DNA of 64,000 bases. Origin: Desulfosporosinus nitroreducens (GTDB lineage Bacteria > Bacillota > Desulfitobacteriia > Desulfitobacteriales > Desulfitobacteriaceae). The DNA lies in the NCBI RefSeq assembly GCF_023897015.1, contig NZ_JAMHFY010000003.1:62001-126000 (forward strand), in the 5' to 3' direction. Of this stretch, positions 3,587-62,640 are shown piece after piece (position 1 is the stretch's first letter; each line of letters opens with the position of its first letter). The translations under genes were made by a program, and so were the position numbers. The notes beneath the pieces were generated by a model that was not told where the DNA came from, ran no database searches, and worked only from the letters and a program-made list of their open reading frames with translations.

Positions 3587-3678
3587 CGAACATCATAGGC
3601 AAACCTATCGAAAGGTAGAGACGCAAAGCTACGGGTCTAAGGATGTACTTTGTACTTTCACGATAGCCGGGTTGCAGA
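3587..3678 (+). promoter_or_regulatory. Second cyclic di-GMP-I (GEMM) riboswitch
   Basis: A near-consensus GEMM-I aptamer: GGCAAACCTATCGAAAGGTAG (first helix with GAAA tetraloop), GACGCAAAGC, then CGGGTCTAAGG as tetraloop receptor, and a second helix ending in GCCGGGTTGCAG. It is closer to consensus than the copy at 925. It is followed by a terminator-like hairpin and then by only the last codons of a chemoreceptor, so its original target seems to be gone. It may now act on the DUF2225 gene at 3894 or on nothing. Confidence 0.88.
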
Positions 3679-3689
3679 AATGTGCATTT

Positions 3690-14798: not shown

Positions 14799-17477
14799 TT
14801 GGAGTGGCTTACATTAACAATTGATGGACGTGAAGTCAGCGTTCCTAAGGGAACGACCGTACTTGATGCCTGTCGCATGAATAATATTCCAATTCCTACC
14901 TTGTGTCATGCACCGGAGCTCACCTCTGCTGGTGCCTGCCGTTTGTGTGTCGTTCAAATCGAAGGAATGCGCAATCTGCCACCTTCTTGCGTAACACAAG
15001 CAACCCAGGGCATGAAAGTAGAGACTCAAAATCCTAAAGTCCGCAATGCACGCAAAGTAATCTTGGAACTGTTAGTAGCCAATCATCCCTTAGACTGCAT
15101 GACTTGCCAGAAGATGGGGGATTGTTCTTTAGCAGAGTATGCTTATGACTATGGTGTAACCGGTGAAGTTTATCAAGGGGAGAAACGCAATCTTCCGATC
15201 GACAGTGGAAACCCTTTCATTTTAAGGGATCAGAATAAATGTATCCTGTGTGGAAAATGTATCAAAGCGTGTTCTGAAATTCAGGGAAAAAGCATTCTCG
15301 ATTTCTCGCATCGTGGATTTGATACCCAAGTGGGTCCGGCCTTCAATTTACCCTATAATGAGTCCGACTGTGATTTCTGCGGTTCATGTGTCTCGGTCTG
15401 TCCGGTAGGGGCCTTGGTAGAGAAGCAAATGGTCGGTAAAGGACGTCCTTGGGAAGTATCGAAAGTCCAAACTACATGCCCATTCTGTGGCGTTGGATGT
15501 AACTTTGACCTGAATGTTAAAGATGGAAAAGTGATTGGGGTGACCTCCAATCCGGATGCCCCTGTTAATGGCAAAGCTCTTTGTGTCAAAGGTCGCTTTG
15601 GAATGGACATGATTTACAGTGATAATCGTGTCACAACTCCTCTGATCAGGAAAGATGGAGTACTAGTTCCAGCAGAATGGGATGAGGCCTTAGATTTAAT
15701 CGCCACGAAGTTAGGCGAGATCAAGAAGACCTATGGTCCTAACTCTATTGCTGCTTTAAGTTCTGCCCATTGCACTAACGAGGAAAATTATCTTATGCAA
15801 AAATTCATGCGCGCGGTAATCGGTACGAACAATATCGATCACTGCGCCAGGACTTGACACGCTCCCACTGTGGCCGGTCTGGCCACCTCATTTGGATCCG
15901 GAGCGATGACCAACTCCATTAATGAAATTCCAAACACCAAAGTAATGTTTGTAATTGGTTCAAACGCAACTGAGGCTCATCCAGTCATTGGAACGAAAAT
16001 GAAGCAAGCACTGGCTAAGGGTGCAAAATTAATTGTGGCAGATCCTCGGCGCATCGATCTTGCTGACCATTCAGATGTTTGGTTAAGACTTCGTCCGGGC
16101 ACTGATATTGCTCTGATCAACGGGATTATGAACATTATTCTTGCTAACGGATGGGAAGATCGAGAGTTCATTGAAGAACGAACAGAAGGCTTTGAAAAAG
16201 TACGTGAAGCCGTGCAAAAATATACACCCGAAGTAGTAAGTAAAGTAACGGGAGTTCCAGAGGAGAATCTCGTAGAGGCCGCTAAAATCTATGCTACTGC
16301 AGAACGAGCTCAAATATTCTATACTTTAGGAATTACTGAGCACACCTGTGGTACGGATAACGTCATGAGCTTGGCGAACCTGGCGATGTTAACCGGTAAT
16401 ATCGGTAAAGAAAGTTCGGGAGTTAACCCAATGCGTGGACAAAACAATGTTCAGGGTGCCTGCGACATGGGTGCACTGCCTGACGTTTATCCCGGCTACC
16501 AAAAGGTCGCAAATCCAGAAGTACAGGCGAAATTCGAAGCCGCTTGGGGAGTTCCCTTAGACCCTAATCCGGGCTTTATGATTCCAGACATGTTTGAAGC
16601 AGCGGTTAGTAAAGATTTACGGGCGTTGTATGTCTTAGGAGAAGATCCAGTCATTACCGATGCTGATGCGAACCATGTGCGCAAAGGTCTGCAGGCCCTT
16701 GATTTCCTTGTAGTCCAAGAAATCTTCTTGTCCGAAACAGCTAAGTTGGCAGATGTTGTTTTACCTGGAGCTAGTTATGCTGAGAAGACAGGCACATTCT
16801 CGAACACTGAGCGGCGAGTGCAAATGGTTAATCAAGCAATTAAACCAATCGGCAATTCAAAGACAGATGGGGAGATCATTTGTGAATTAGCAACTCGTAT
16901 GGGTTATCCCTTCGAATATCAATCCTCGGAAGAAGTTATGCAAGAGATTGCGAAGCTTACCCCTCAATTTGCTGGGATCACCCATGAGCGCTTGGGAACA
17001 CAAGGTCTGCAATGGCCGGTGCCGCATGCTGAACATCCCGGGACGAAGTTCTTACATGAGGGGAAATTCACCCGAGGCAAAGGACAGTTCGTGGCGATTG
17101 AGAATCAGTTGCCTGCTGAATTACCGGATGAGGAGTATCCATTCTTACTCAGTACCGGACGAAAACTTTCCCATTACAATGTTTTCACACAACACTCTCC
17201 ATCTCTGGAGATCCATTCTCCGGAAGAGTTGGCTGAGATTAACCCTTCTGATGCCAAACAACTTGGACTAGAAGACGGTGAACAAGTCAAAGTGGCTTCC
17301 CGTCGTGGCGAGCTCAATACTAAAATTATGATTACGGAACGGGTGCCCGTGGGTATGGTCTTTATGACCCTTCACTATTTTGATTCACCGACTAACGTCT
17401 TGACCAATGGAGCCTATGACAAAGTCACCAAAACGTACGAGTATAAAGTGTGTGGTGTAAAGATTTCTAAAGTTTAA
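14799..17477 (+). CDS. fdhA: Selenocysteine formate dehydrogenase catalytic subunit with NuoG-like N-terminus
   Basis: A single 892-residue gene read through an in-frame TGA (15855-15857, residue 353). Without recoding it looks like two open frames, but both halves are in the same frame and the context DHCART-U-HAPTVAGLA is the FdhA active-site signature, where U ligates Mo/W and oxidises formate to CO2. N-terminus: [2Fe-2S] ferredoxin (CHAPELTSAGACRLC), His-Cys 4Fe-4S (HPLDCMTCQKMGDC), two 4Fe-4S (CILCGKCIKAC, CDFCGSCVSVC), then the molybdopterin domain with CPFCGVGC. A SECIS hairpin follows the TGA. Start TTG 14799 after GAGAGGAGTG. Electrons pass to the NuoF/NuoE-like subunits; FdhD, MobA and Moa genes are encoded at 43-48 kb. 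Confidence 0.95.
15855..15890 (+). promoter_or_regulatory. Bacterial SECIS element of fdhA
   Basis: After the recoded TGA (15855-15857) there are 18 bases to a GGTCT apical loop (15876-15880), enclosed by a perfect 6-bp stem GTGGCC (15870-15875) / GGCCAC (15881-15886). Both the GGUCU loop and the 18-base spacing equal those of the E. coli fdhF SECIS bound by SelB. This decides that the TGA is selenocysteine. Confidence 0.95.
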
Positions 17478-19050: not shown

Positions 19051-19073
19051 TATACTTCTATAAGCATAACGAT

Positions 19074-19157
19074 TAGCTTCCCTCCGCTGGTATTAACCAG
19101 ATCAGGTTCAAAGGGATCGAGTTTCCTCATCTCAGCCCCGAAGGGCACCCCTAGCAA
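19074..19157 (-). promoter_or_regulatory. TPP riboswitch (THI element)
   Basis: On the minus strand the conserved aptamer segments appear in order: GGGGTGCCCTTCGGGGCTGAGA, then GAACCTGATCTGGTTAATACC, then CAGCGGAGGGA. These are the hallmark TPP-binding sequences. The leader runs about 270 bases to thiC and contains a terminator, so TPP should repress thiC. Confidence 0.97.
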
Positions 19158-19372
19158 AAAGACGTATTTAGTTGTGAGCGGGCATTACTTGCCTTGGTAG
19201 TATTACACCTGTACCCATTATATAACTAAAAGGGTATAGGTGTAAATATTAAAACACAGTATATTGAAATATTTGGGTTTTCTCTTGGGGAATCTGATTC
19301 GCTATGATGTAAGGATTTCTAACATGACAATAAACGTTTGATAATTTATTCTTACAGCCCTTGGTTGTGTGC

Positions 19373-43696: not shown

Positions 43697-43770
43697 TTTT
43701 GCTCCTGCGTGACAGGAAAAGTTAGTTGTGGTACATTGAAGGAGAACCGATGATTTGAGGAGTGATATTA

Positions 43771-44007
43771 ATGAATCAAGAAGTGATTATGTATACTGTA
43801 CCCCTTTGACCTTATTGTTTTCGCGCTAAGCGATTCCTTTCGGGTAAAGGGATTTTGTTTACAGAGAAAAATATTGTATTTCCTAAGCATTTAAAAGAAA
43901 TGAGAAAGATGACCGATGCGATCGGAGTTCCCGTGACTATTGTGGGAAAACGGATTCTGACTCGTTTCTCGTCCTCTGAATATGAGGAGGTCTTTAGAAA
44001 TTACTAA
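43771..44007 (+). CDS. Selenocysteine glutaredoxin-like protein (UPYC)
   Basis: A 78-residue gene interrupted by an in-frame TGA at 43807-43809 (residue 13). With Sec it reads MNQEVIMYTVPL-U-PYCFRAKRFL, placing U exactly at the first Cys of the CPYC active site of glutaredoxins; the cis-Pro region GVPVTIVG and C-terminal SSSEYEEVF also match the NrdH/Grx family. A GAGGAGTG ribosome-binding site precedes ATG 43771. A hairpin beyond the TGA fits a SECIS. A thiol-disulfide redox protein in the cytoplasm. The frame would be broken without selenocysteine, and conservation after the TGA argues against a pseudogene. Overlaps mobA. Confidence 0.85.
43807..43840 (+). promoter_or_regulatory. Candidate SECIS of the Sec-glutaredoxin gene
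   Basis: Fifteen bases after TGA begins stem TCGC (43821-43824) / GCGA (43830-43833) with loop GCTAA. The loop begins with G, as bacterial SECIS elements require, and lies 16-20 bases after TGA. The stem is short. Confidence 0.6.
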
Positions 44008-44620
44008 GCCGCTGCAGGACTTGAGAAAACAACTTCCAAAATTGAACGCCACCGGAATTTTATTAGCAGGCGGAAAAAGCTCGCGAATGAAAAAGGATAA
44101 GGCCTTTCTTGAGATGGATGGACAGCCTCTGGTGGAACGGAGTTTAGAGGTTTTGCAAACCATATTTTCTCAGGTGATCATTAGTAGCAACAAGCCTGAA
44201 CTTTTTGCGCGCTATGATGTACCAATAATTAAGGATGAGCTGCTTGATCGAGGTCCGATAGAAGGACTTTATCAAGGATTAAAAGCAGCGGCCAATGATA
44301 ATGTTTTCTTTGTTGCCTGTGATATGCCGTTTTTAAAGACAGACCTTATTCGTTATTTGGCAAGGTGGATTCCGGAGTATGATATCGTCGTTCCAAAAAC
44401 TCAGGCCGGCCTACATCCTTTACATGCCTTTTATCATCGTCGCTGCCTTCCCACAATTAAAAAAAGTCTTGAGGCAGGTCGCCTCAAGATTATTGATCTC
44501 TTTTTGCTTTGTTCAGTAAAGTATGTGGAGGAAACGGAACTGGAGAGTTTTTCGGATCTAACGAATGTCTTCTATAACGTGAACACACCAGAAGATTGGG
44601 CTGCTATACATAAACGATAA
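43982..44620 (+). CDS. mobA: Molybdenum cofactor guanylyltransferase MobA
   Basis: Nucleotidyltransferase that converts Mo-molybdopterin to the guanine dinucleotide form used by formate dehydrogenase. The signature LLAGGKSSRMKKDKAFLEMDGQPLVER (about 28-54, quoted in pieces) with CDMPFLK is clear. 212 residues from ATG 43982; that ATG overlaps the last codons of the Sec-glutaredoxin and has no good ribosome-binding site. GAGGAGG at 43984-43990 is 9 bases before an in-frame ATT at 44000, so an unusual ATT start or a later start is possible. Confidence 0.93.
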   Translation: MRRSLEITKPLQDLRKQLPKLNATGILLAGGKSSRMKKDKAFLEMDGQPLVERSLEVLQTIFSQVIISSNKPELFARYDVPIIKDELLDRGPIEGLYQGLKAAANDNVFFVACDMPFLKTDLIRYLARWIPEYDIVVPKTQAGLHPLHAFYHRRCLPTIKKSLEAGRLKIIDLFLLCSVKYVEETELESFSDLTNVFYNVNTPEDWAAIHKR

Positions 44621-44639: not shown

Positions 44640-45431
44640 TCAATTGTTAGCGATAATTCGTTCGGGACAGGTATAAATATTTAAGCGTTGTTCTCTTGCA
44701 AATCCAACTACAGTAATGTTTAAAGCAGTCGCTTGAGAAAGGGCCATATCTGTTGGTGCCCCACGGGCGATGAGTATGGGTACTTTCATTTTGGCAACCT
44801 TAAGCAGGATTTCTGAGGAAACTCGACCACTAAAAAAAATCACATGGTTTTCAAGATTTAACTTAGTGCGAAAGGCTTCACCGCCGAGCTTATCAAAAAC
44901 ATTGTGCCTGCCAATATCATAACTTGTCAGGATTACATTCCCTTTATAACCAACTCCCCCACTGTGTACCCCACCGGTCTCCTGAAAGAGTGGGAGATAA
45001 GATTGCAAAAACTTAGCATAATCATAGGCTTCTTGAAGTAAAATGCTATAGGTTGATGTAAGGGGTTTGACCATTAGAGCGTCATTGGCAAAACAAAAAG
45101 AAGCTCGGCTTTTACCGCAACAAGCGGAAACAAATCGTTTGCTCATGAGTTCTTTTTGTAAGACGCAGGGTTTACCTTCGACCCAAATCATATGGTCCGA
45201 GGGATCTTGGCGAATTTCGTATACGTCCTCTGGAACTCGAATGAACCCTTCATTGAATAAAAATCCAAGTGTAAGTTCCTCAGTTTGAGAAGGCGAGCAC
45301 AATAGCGTAGCAATCTCCTCGCGGTTGTAGTGTACTGTTAGAGGAACCTCTCGGACTACTGTGTCTTCCACCCATTCTAGTGATGTCCCCTTAGCTTTAA
45401 GAATGGAATGGGCAATAGTTTGGTTTGGCAT
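44640..45431 (-). CDS. fdhD: Formate dehydrogenase accessory sulfurtransferase FdhD
   Basis: Delivers sulfur to the Mo/W cofactor of formate dehydrogenase. About 263 residues from ATG 45431, which has AGGAGGTAAC just upstream; a longer frame to 45470 lacks one. Blocks visible: EVPLTVHYNREEIATLLCSP, the cysteine loop VSACCGKSR, GGVHSGGV, and YDIGRHNVFDKLGGEA. The Cys pair in the loop is CC rather than the common CxxC. Convergent with mobA and divergent from the Moco-controlled moa operon. Confidence 0.95.
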   Translation of the reverse strand: MPNQTIAHSILKAKGTSLEWVEDTVVREVPLTVHYNREEIATLLCSPSQTEELTLGFLFNEGFIRVPEDVYEIRQDPSDHMIWVEGKPCVLQKELMSKRFVSACCGKSRASFCFANDALMVKPLTSTYSILLQEAYDYAKFLQSYLPLFQETGGVHSGGVGYKGNVILTSYDIGRHNVFDKLGGEAFRTKLNLENHVIFFSGRVSSEILLKVAKMKVPILIARGAPTDMALSQATALNITVVGFAREQRLNIYTCPERIIANN

Positions 45432-45587
45432 TGTTACCTCCTTGGACCTTACCTTTCTTATAGTGTACAATATTTTTGGAAAAACCTGAATCTTTTTTTT
45501 ATAAAAAGGTAAATGTATATGTATTAATAAAAGGAATTCTCAAACTTATCGCGAATTATCTTCTAATAAGGTTAAAATTGAATAGTA

Positions 45588-45716
45588 CGTGCTCCGAAGC
45601 TGGATTACCTAAAGCAGAGGCTATGGTGACCAGACTAGTGTCTTAAGACACTCGGGTATTACGGGAAACTGTGATATCTCCTGCTGGAAAGGAGTCTGTC
45701 GACAGGTGGAATATAT
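45588..45716 (+). promoter_or_regulatory. Moco (molybdenum cofactor) RNA motif / riboswitch
   Basis: Located between fdhD and moaA. Recognisable conserved parts of the Moco RNA motif are GCTCCGAAGC near the 5' end, ACTCGGGTATTACGGGAAACTG in the centre, and CTCCTGCTGGAAAGGAG near the 3' end. It is followed at once by a terminator and moaA. The same motif class can sense tungsten cofactor. It probably lowers moaA-moaC transcription when cofactor is ample. Confidence 0.8.
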
Positions 45717-52829: not shown

Positions 52830-53177
52830 TTAAATTCTCTCCGGCGTAGTATTAAAGCAATACGAACATTTCGGACAAGTTACTTGGAGTGCTCCTTTAT
52901 TAATAGGAACCCGCATCTTGGCTTGGCATTTCTCGCATTCTATGACCCGATGATCGACTAACTGTAGAATCCGCGCCTGATCAAAGCCGACAACCAATTG
53001 ATCACCAATCAGAAAAGAAGGAACTCCGCTGACGTTTCTACGGATTAACTCTGAGCGGGCTTGTTCATCACGGTTGATATCCTTTTCTACAAAATGAATC
53101 TTATGCTGCGAAAGAAACTTCTTCGCTGTAAAACAATGCGGTCAGGTTTGTGTGGTGAATATGATGACGTTCTTCAT
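52830..53177 (-). CDS. Selenocysteine glutaredoxin with zinc-ribbon tail (UPHC)
   Basis: A 115-residue gene with in-frame TGA at 53144-53142 (residue 12): MKNVIIFTTQT-U-PHCFTAKKFL places U at the first Cys of a glutaredoxin CPHC/CPYC active site. The Grx/NrdH core continues (VEKDINRDEQAR, VSGVPSFLIGD with cis-Pro, VVGFDQARILQLV). A C-terminal zinc ribbon follows, CEKCQAKMRVP and CPKCSYC. AAGGAGT precedes the ATG. It has a SECIS-like hairpin and ends at a strong terminator. The frame after TGA is fully protein-like, so recoding is far more likely than a nonsense mutation. Role: cytoplasmic thiol/selenol redox. Confidence 0.85.
53108..53144 (-). promoter_or_regulatory. Candidate SECIS of the zinc-ribbon Sec-glutaredoxin gene
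   Basis: On the minus strand, 15 bases after the TGA, GCGAAGAAGTTTCTTTCGC (53126-53108) folds as GCGAA-GA / TC-(U)-UUCGC with an apical AGUU loop and a bulged U, as in known bacterial SECIS elements. Confidence 0.6.
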
Positions 53178-53259
53178 AGCAACTTACTCCTTCCCCATAT
53201 GCGTATGCTAAACTGAAATTCTTATTTGCTTACACGGTTTTCCCAGGCAAACCGCTTAA

Positions 53260-62328: not shown

Positions 62329-62454
62329 GGCTATCTTTATAGTGATAAATTTTTTCTGGAATACTTTCAAGGTTACAATAAGAGAGAACAACAGGGAACT
62401 AAAAAGCCTTGCAAAATATCCATTTATTGTTTATAATGTGTTTAGAAAATTCAA

Positions 62455-62640
62455 TAACTACAGGTGCCTCATTGTGAGGAGAATAGGGAAGTCGGTGTAA
62501 GTCCGGCGCGGTCCCGCCACTGTAAACGGGAAGCAAGAAGCATATTACCACGGGTTAGTTCCCGGAAGGTGCTTCGAAGTGTTGATCCGTAAGCCAGGAG
62601 ACCTGCCTTGTAGTTAAGCTAAGCCTACCTTGTCGAAGAA
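62455..62640 (+). promoter_or_regulatory. Cobalamin riboswitch
   Basis: The conserved features appear in order: the 5' loop ACAGGTGCCTC, the core GGGAAGTCGGTGTAAGTCCGGCGCGGTCCCGCCACTG (quoted only in parts: GTGTAAGTCC, GGTCCCGCCACTG), and the B12 box AGCCAGGAGACCTGCC. It is followed by a perfect terminator (62668-62706), so cobalamin should switch off the ThiC-like gene downstream. Confidence 0.97.

Follow-up and report, generated by a model that had tools for sequence, protein, structure and literature searches.

A very likely selenocysteine glutaredoxin gene overlapping mobA in Desulfosporosinus nitroreducens, and its probable return from cysteine to selenocysteine

Introduction

Can a short reading frame that is interrupted by a TGA and overlaps a molybdenum cofactor gene encode a selenoprotein, and how did selenocysteine (Sec) come to stand where some close relatives have cysteine? 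These questions are raised by positions 43771 to 44007 of the stretch of the Desulfosporosinus nitroreducens genome analysed here (64,000 nucleotides, hereafter the window). The small Sec glutaredoxin family is already known, but its members are few and ordinary ORF calling conceals them. Some were described in the Sargasso Sea and in early bacterial selenoproteome surveys (PMC1088965, PMC1794560). They belong to the same Pfam family, carry Sec as the first residue of the active site and have a SECIS element further downstream; unlike in the present case, no association with mobA and no exchange of Sec and Cys alleles was found in the passages of these surveys that were consulted. For Desulfosporosinus, no report of a Sec glutaredoxin was found in a search of open-licence papers.

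Results

The glutaredoxin gene and its product

43757-43762, plus strand: Shine-Dalgarno sequence GAGGAG of the glutaredoxin gene, 8 nt 5' of the ATG, with a similar motif in most relatives.
43771-44007, plus strand: Sec glutaredoxin gene, 78 amino acids, UPYC motif, stop codon TAA (translation with TGA as Sec, PF00462, orthologues, dN/dS, AlphaFold model).
43807-43809, plus strand: UGA, codon 13, very likely Sec, at the nucleophile position of the C/UPYC motif; orthologues have TGA or TGC/TGT.

When TGA is read as Sec, the frame gives the product MNQEVIMYTVPLUPYCFRAKRFLSGKGILFTEKNIVFPKHLKEMRKMTDAIGVPVTIVGKRILTRFSSSEYEEVFRNY, followed by the stop. The Pfam glutaredoxin model (PF00462) matches it with an E-value of 5e-10 and 39.8 bits, above the gathering cut-off of 22.9. 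The initial annotation had proposed a 78-residue glutaredoxin with U at the nucleophile position, preceded by a ribosome-binding site and missed by stop-to-stop reading. The translation, the Pfam match, the orthologues with Cys or TGA and the GAGGAG motif agree with this, and the gene is indeed absent from the ORF list.

The AlphaFold model has a pLDDT of 92.7 and a helix at residues 14-25 after the first strand. According to this model and to matches with glutaredoxin structures, the protein adopts a thioredoxin/glutaredoxin fold in which helix 1 starts at the C/UPxC motif. The best NCBIfam match is TIGR02196, the YruB family (E 3e-13). It shares with the NrdH redoxins (TIGR02194) the small CxxC glutaredoxin type, but our protein reaches neither curated cut-off (49.9 bits against 88.55 and 19.5 against 85.75, respectively). 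The same holds for the Uxx-star selenoproteins (NF041212 and kin), also a Sec glutaredoxin-like family, with 36.9 bits against a cut-off of 66. With scores under all three thresholds, these assignments were dropped.

Within Desulfosporosinus the orthologues are 69-86% identical and have TGA or TGC/TGT at codon 13 alone, i.e. the in-frame UGA aligns with Cys in homologues. Downstream of the UGA, third codon positions vary most between the window gene and its Sec orthologues, and dN/dS lies between 0.09 and 0.36 in 11 of 14 comparisons, while for the remaining three it could not be computed because of dS. Among its carriers are Desulfosporosinus species and Paradesulfitobacterium, with an Alicyclobacillaceae bacterium as a more distant case. 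When 299 genomes were drawn evenly from the phylum, matches with E < 1e-30 were confined to the class, with a few weaker matches outside; searches of plasmid and phage collections gave no match. Several orthologues (L042, L043, L075, L045) terminate in TGA.

The selenocysteine machinery of the genome

14799-17477, plus strand: Sec formate dehydrogenase with UGA at 15858-15860 (TIGR01591, 881 bits with one in-frame TGA; ORFs flank the UGA on both sides).

Two selA genes, two selB genes over the curated cut-off and two tRNA-Sec genes are present in the genome; a selD gene, assigned by reading the ORF, adjoins one selA. Thus selA, selB, tRNA-Sec and selD, as called for by a selenoprotein, were all found. 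The initial annotation would have given up its reading in a genome that lacked selA, selB and selC, or if homologues had neither Cys nor U at this position; the machinery is there and Cys homologues exist. The Sec formate dehydrogenase to which it referred lies in the same window.

One selA-selB-tRNA-Sec set is self-contained and lies in an apparent glycine reductase/thioredoxin cluster (L054, genome C95:86000-105000). A similar selA is also present in two other genomes (G003, one contig, and G026), and contamination was therefore rejected as the source of the doubled machinery.

The Pfam glutaredoxin model identifies three glutaredoxins in the genome that are each broken by one TGA and two without TGA. 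The second one in the window is a UPHC protein (52833-53186, minus strand, UGA at 53142-53144) with a C-terminal CxxC...CxxC tail that resembles a zinc ribbon. The third, again UPYC, is found elsewhere in the genome (L001 1492-1719, C33 about 215991). Its stop codon is apparently also TGA, so UGA would mean both Sec and stop within one gene. In another genus of the family two Sec glutaredoxins stand side by side (L046, 1501-1728 and 2472-2807), not beside mobA.

A SECIS hairpin within the coding sequence

43833-43853, plus strand: SECIS hairpin ATTCCTTT-CGGGT-AAAGGGAT, whose arms pair in an 8-bp stem around the apical loop CGGGT (43841-43845), spaced 31 nt from the UGA on its 3' side.

According to the bacterial SECIS model, the loop has 3-9 nt, the stem 4-16 bp, a G is found in the first two loop positions and the spacing is 16-37 nt (PMC13188914). 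The hairpin falls within these limits for all four compared properties (loop 5 nt, stem 8 bp, G position, spacing 31 nt). The SECIS-like hairpin of the initial annotation therefore stands, but not its position, 43807-43840, which covers the UGA and the 5' arm only, as the hairpin lies slightly downstream.

We compared synonymous identity at codons 21-29 between Sec and Cys genes. It is 80% in the 18 Sec genes and 45% in the 11 Cys genes, even though the Sec set covers more genera, and outside these codons there is no comparable Sec excess. Codons 22-24 and 26 are invariant among the Sec genes wherever the amino acid matches. RNAalifold recovers the same hairpin from the alignment, the stem is paired in 95.7% of the cells for the Sec genes, and none of 500 shuffles matches its covariation score. 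Two-sided changes are seen at two stem pairs, both within a single lineage (L048, L097), and no stem pair is altered on both sides in the Cys set. Against random synonymous recoding, every Sec-gene hairpin is among the most stable 7%. Among the ten Desulfosporosinus Cys genes, four keep hairpins that rank in the top 0.2% for stability, two with the same hairpin, while the others do not; we read the four as fossil SECIS elements. The chance estimates for covariation and stability are relative to shuffles and recodings made in this analysis.

These data also bear on the explanation of a broken Cys glutaredoxin whose UGA is a normal stop or results from a sequencing error, as the intact Cys form of several close relatives might suggest. 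However, the TGA is found in many independent genomes and in other genera, purifying selection acts on the frame 3' of it, and the hairpin is more conserved than the protein requires. Given the recurrence of the TGA, the dN/dS values and the SECIS, we reject a pseudogene or sequencing error, whose probability we consider very low. Recoding of UGA 43807 as Sec is very likely, and judging from the sequence we are highly confident that 43771-44007 is a genuine selenoprotein gene, coding for a small dithiol-type glutaredoxin in which Sec replaces the catalytic Cys.

Switching between selenium and sulfur forms

Among the sampled related genera there is one distant Cys form alone (L049), and it lacks the hairpin. 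For this reason Sec appears to be ancestral in the gene family and the Cys forms in the genus derived. The relatives show repeated switching between the selenium and the sulfur form. In a tree of five neighbouring proteins, the window genome falls within the clade of D. lacus and SRJS8, which both have Cys, as sister to D. lacus (support 95/88), and this tree implies four or more state changes. The neighbouring proteins reject a single Cys clade (p 2e-35), but the glutaredoxin tree does not (p 0.39 and 0.60). The gene is too short to resolve the number of switches, and its tree was set aside as a guide to it.

The surroundings of the gene differ as well. In D. lacus the formate dehydrogenase-thiC region directly adjoins the glutaredoxin, whereas in the window about 24.4 kb lie between them (19.27-43.75 kb). 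This insert (19270-43750) carries 2-oxoacid dehydrogenase-like genes and lipoate synthesis genes including LipS1/LipS2, and is missing from this location in D. lacus and SRJS8. No close copy of its LipS1 was found in the genomes taken as D. lacus (G019) and SRJS8 (G018). In 300-base steps from about 39 kb onward, the part of the insert covered by the comparison, identity to D. sp. I2 and D. metallidurans is about 83-95%. Further away from the insert the window is 97-100% identical to D. lacus; toward it, identity drops to 73% on the left and to 75-80% at the glutaredoxin on the right, and over mobA it is intermediate.

Independent point changes could have produced the Cys and Sec forms of the genus, with the divergent tract reflecting fast evolution rather than recombination. 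The state changes required by the neighbouring genes, at least four, are in line with this. On the other hand, identity to D. lacus drops exactly at the glutaredoxin and likewise on the far side of the 24-kb insert, and a single Cys clade is rejected for the neighbours and not for the glutaredoxin, so that we consider point changes rather unlikely. In the simplest reading, the insert and its flanks would instead have been brought in by homologous recombination, together with the Sec allele, and the closest relatives of the recipient lineage have Cys. Based on these sequence comparisons, the Sec allele was probably re-imported together with the 24-kb insert into a Cys lineage, a direction that we infer.

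The overlap with mobA

43985-43990, plus strand: AGGAGG, probable mobA Shine-Dalgarno sequence inside the last glutaredoxin codons (EEV), seen in the 18 mobA-linked orthologues checked.
44000-44620, plus strand: mobA, molybdenum cofactor guanylyltransferase (PF12804, E 5e-42; MobA models), with a probable AUU start at 44000-44002.
44640-45470, minus strand: fdhD, formate dehydrogenase accessory sulfurtransferase (TIGR00129, 180 bits over a cut-off of 141; synteny).
45580-45710, plus strand: molybdenum cofactor riboswitch 5' of moaA, between fdhD and moaA (RF01055, 46.9 bits over a gathering cut-off of 36).

In two relatives, D. sp. I2 (L035 = L068) and SbF1 (L032 = L066), ATG, GTG and TTG are all missing from the mobA frame from the last stop to the nucleotide-binding motif, and therefore mobA probably starts at AUU 44000. 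AUU initiation is known for infC. The codon 9 nt past the Shine-Dalgarno sequence is ATT in most relatives and ATC or ATA in others; in Paradesulfitobacterium an ATG is found two codons further on. A start at ATG 43982 was rejected, the codon being ACG in many relatives, as were the downstream TTG codons, which are TTA or absent in several of them; in addition, the residues QLPKL just before 44042 are maintained largely by synonymous changes. A frameshift fusion with the glutaredoxin is a conceivable alternative. The genes do overlap, as the initial annotation stated; the 26 nt overlap would need the unconserved ATG 43982, while the likely AUU start gives 8 nt. Initiated at AUU from a Shine-Dalgarno sequence inside the glutaredoxin gene, mobA would likely be translationally coupled to it. 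A hairpin that masks the mobA Shine-Dalgarno sequence is predicted in the window, but by eye relatives lack the complementary CCTC, and it was discarded as evidence of coupling.

The initial annotation had tentatively linked this overlap to selenium. Under such gating, without selenium the ribosomes would halt at codon 13 and never reach the mobA start, and bis-MGD and the Sec formate dehydrogenase would fall. The overlap, the position of the Shine-Dalgarno sequence within glutaredoxin codons, the probable AUU, which as a weak start should favour coupled initiation, the predicted folding of that Shine-Dalgarno sequence into a hairpin and the presence of a Sec formate dehydrogenase in the window are all compatible with it. 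However, Cys relatives have the same overlap and an AUU or AUC start, so the arrangement is not specific to the selenium form and cannot by itself be called a selenium switch. Further, the masking hairpin was computed for the window alone and by eye is missing in relatives, and MobA also serves other molybdoenzymes. We regard the gating as improbable. If true, MobA, bis-MGD and the Sec formate dehydrogenase would track selenium, and selenium status would control molybdenum cofactor maturation via translation.

Rfam riboswitches are also found elsewhere in the window: cobalamin (62445-62625, plus strand), TPP (19062-19162, minus strand) and c-di-GMP-I (3588-3679, plus strand).

Discussion

In the mechanism that we propose, SelB and tRNA-Sec, steered by the in-gene SECIS, would insert Sec at UGA 43807. 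By homology to cGrx1 of Clostridium (Alkaliphilus) oremlandii, Sec13 would attack a partner at a disulfide or selenenylsulfide bond, and the intermediate would be resolved by Cys16. cGrx1 (PDB 7c10, 7c12, 7c13) is the best PDB sequence match (E 3e-10), and the AlphaFold model superimposes on it with TM-scores of 0.83/0.86 at 38% identity in the structural alignment. Both proteins have a U-P-x-C active site with Sec, about 80 residues and the same fold; the window gene, however, stands on its own branch and next to mobA, and cGrx1 is matched more closely by its two paralogues in the genome (E about 1e-20; the UPHC protein 2e-20).

What would the partner be? Most Desulfosporosinus share the order glutaredoxin-mobA-fdhD with Paradesulfitobacterium and other genera of the family, with glutaredoxin identities of 51-61% across several genera, and moaA, moaC, a MOSC protein and mogA usually come after fdhD. 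As several genera keep the glutaredoxin upstream of mobA, fdhD and molybdenum cofactor biosynthesis genes, it may act on a thiol enzyme that takes part in the maturation of the cofactor or of formate dehydrogenase, a suggestion from gene order in which our confidence is moderate to low. It is quite possible that the protein is instead a general thiol reductant, for instance for methionine sulfoxide reductase, and the adjacency to mobA incidental. For cGrx1, the closest characterised relative and itself a native selenoprotein, reduction of MsrA has been proposed (PMC7642778), and Sec copies of the gene also occur away from mobA (L075, L076, L078, L080, L081). Against this, the adjacency is maintained over several genera at that level of divergence, and the two paralogues, being much closer to cGrx1 than the main gene, are better candidates for a cGrx1-like role.

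According to a 2026 review, bacterial Sec-to-Cys substitutions are rare and documented mainly for FdhA and SelD (PMC13188914). The glutaredoxin provides a natural series, in which close relatives have Sec or Cys at one codon and SECIS hairpins that are intact, decaying or absent. Several Cys forms that appear to derive from Sec and retain fossil hairpins are available within one genus, together with one apparent return to Sec through import of an allele. Since mobA probably starts at AUU behind a Sec gene, a regulatory link between selenium and molybdenum also becomes directly testable.
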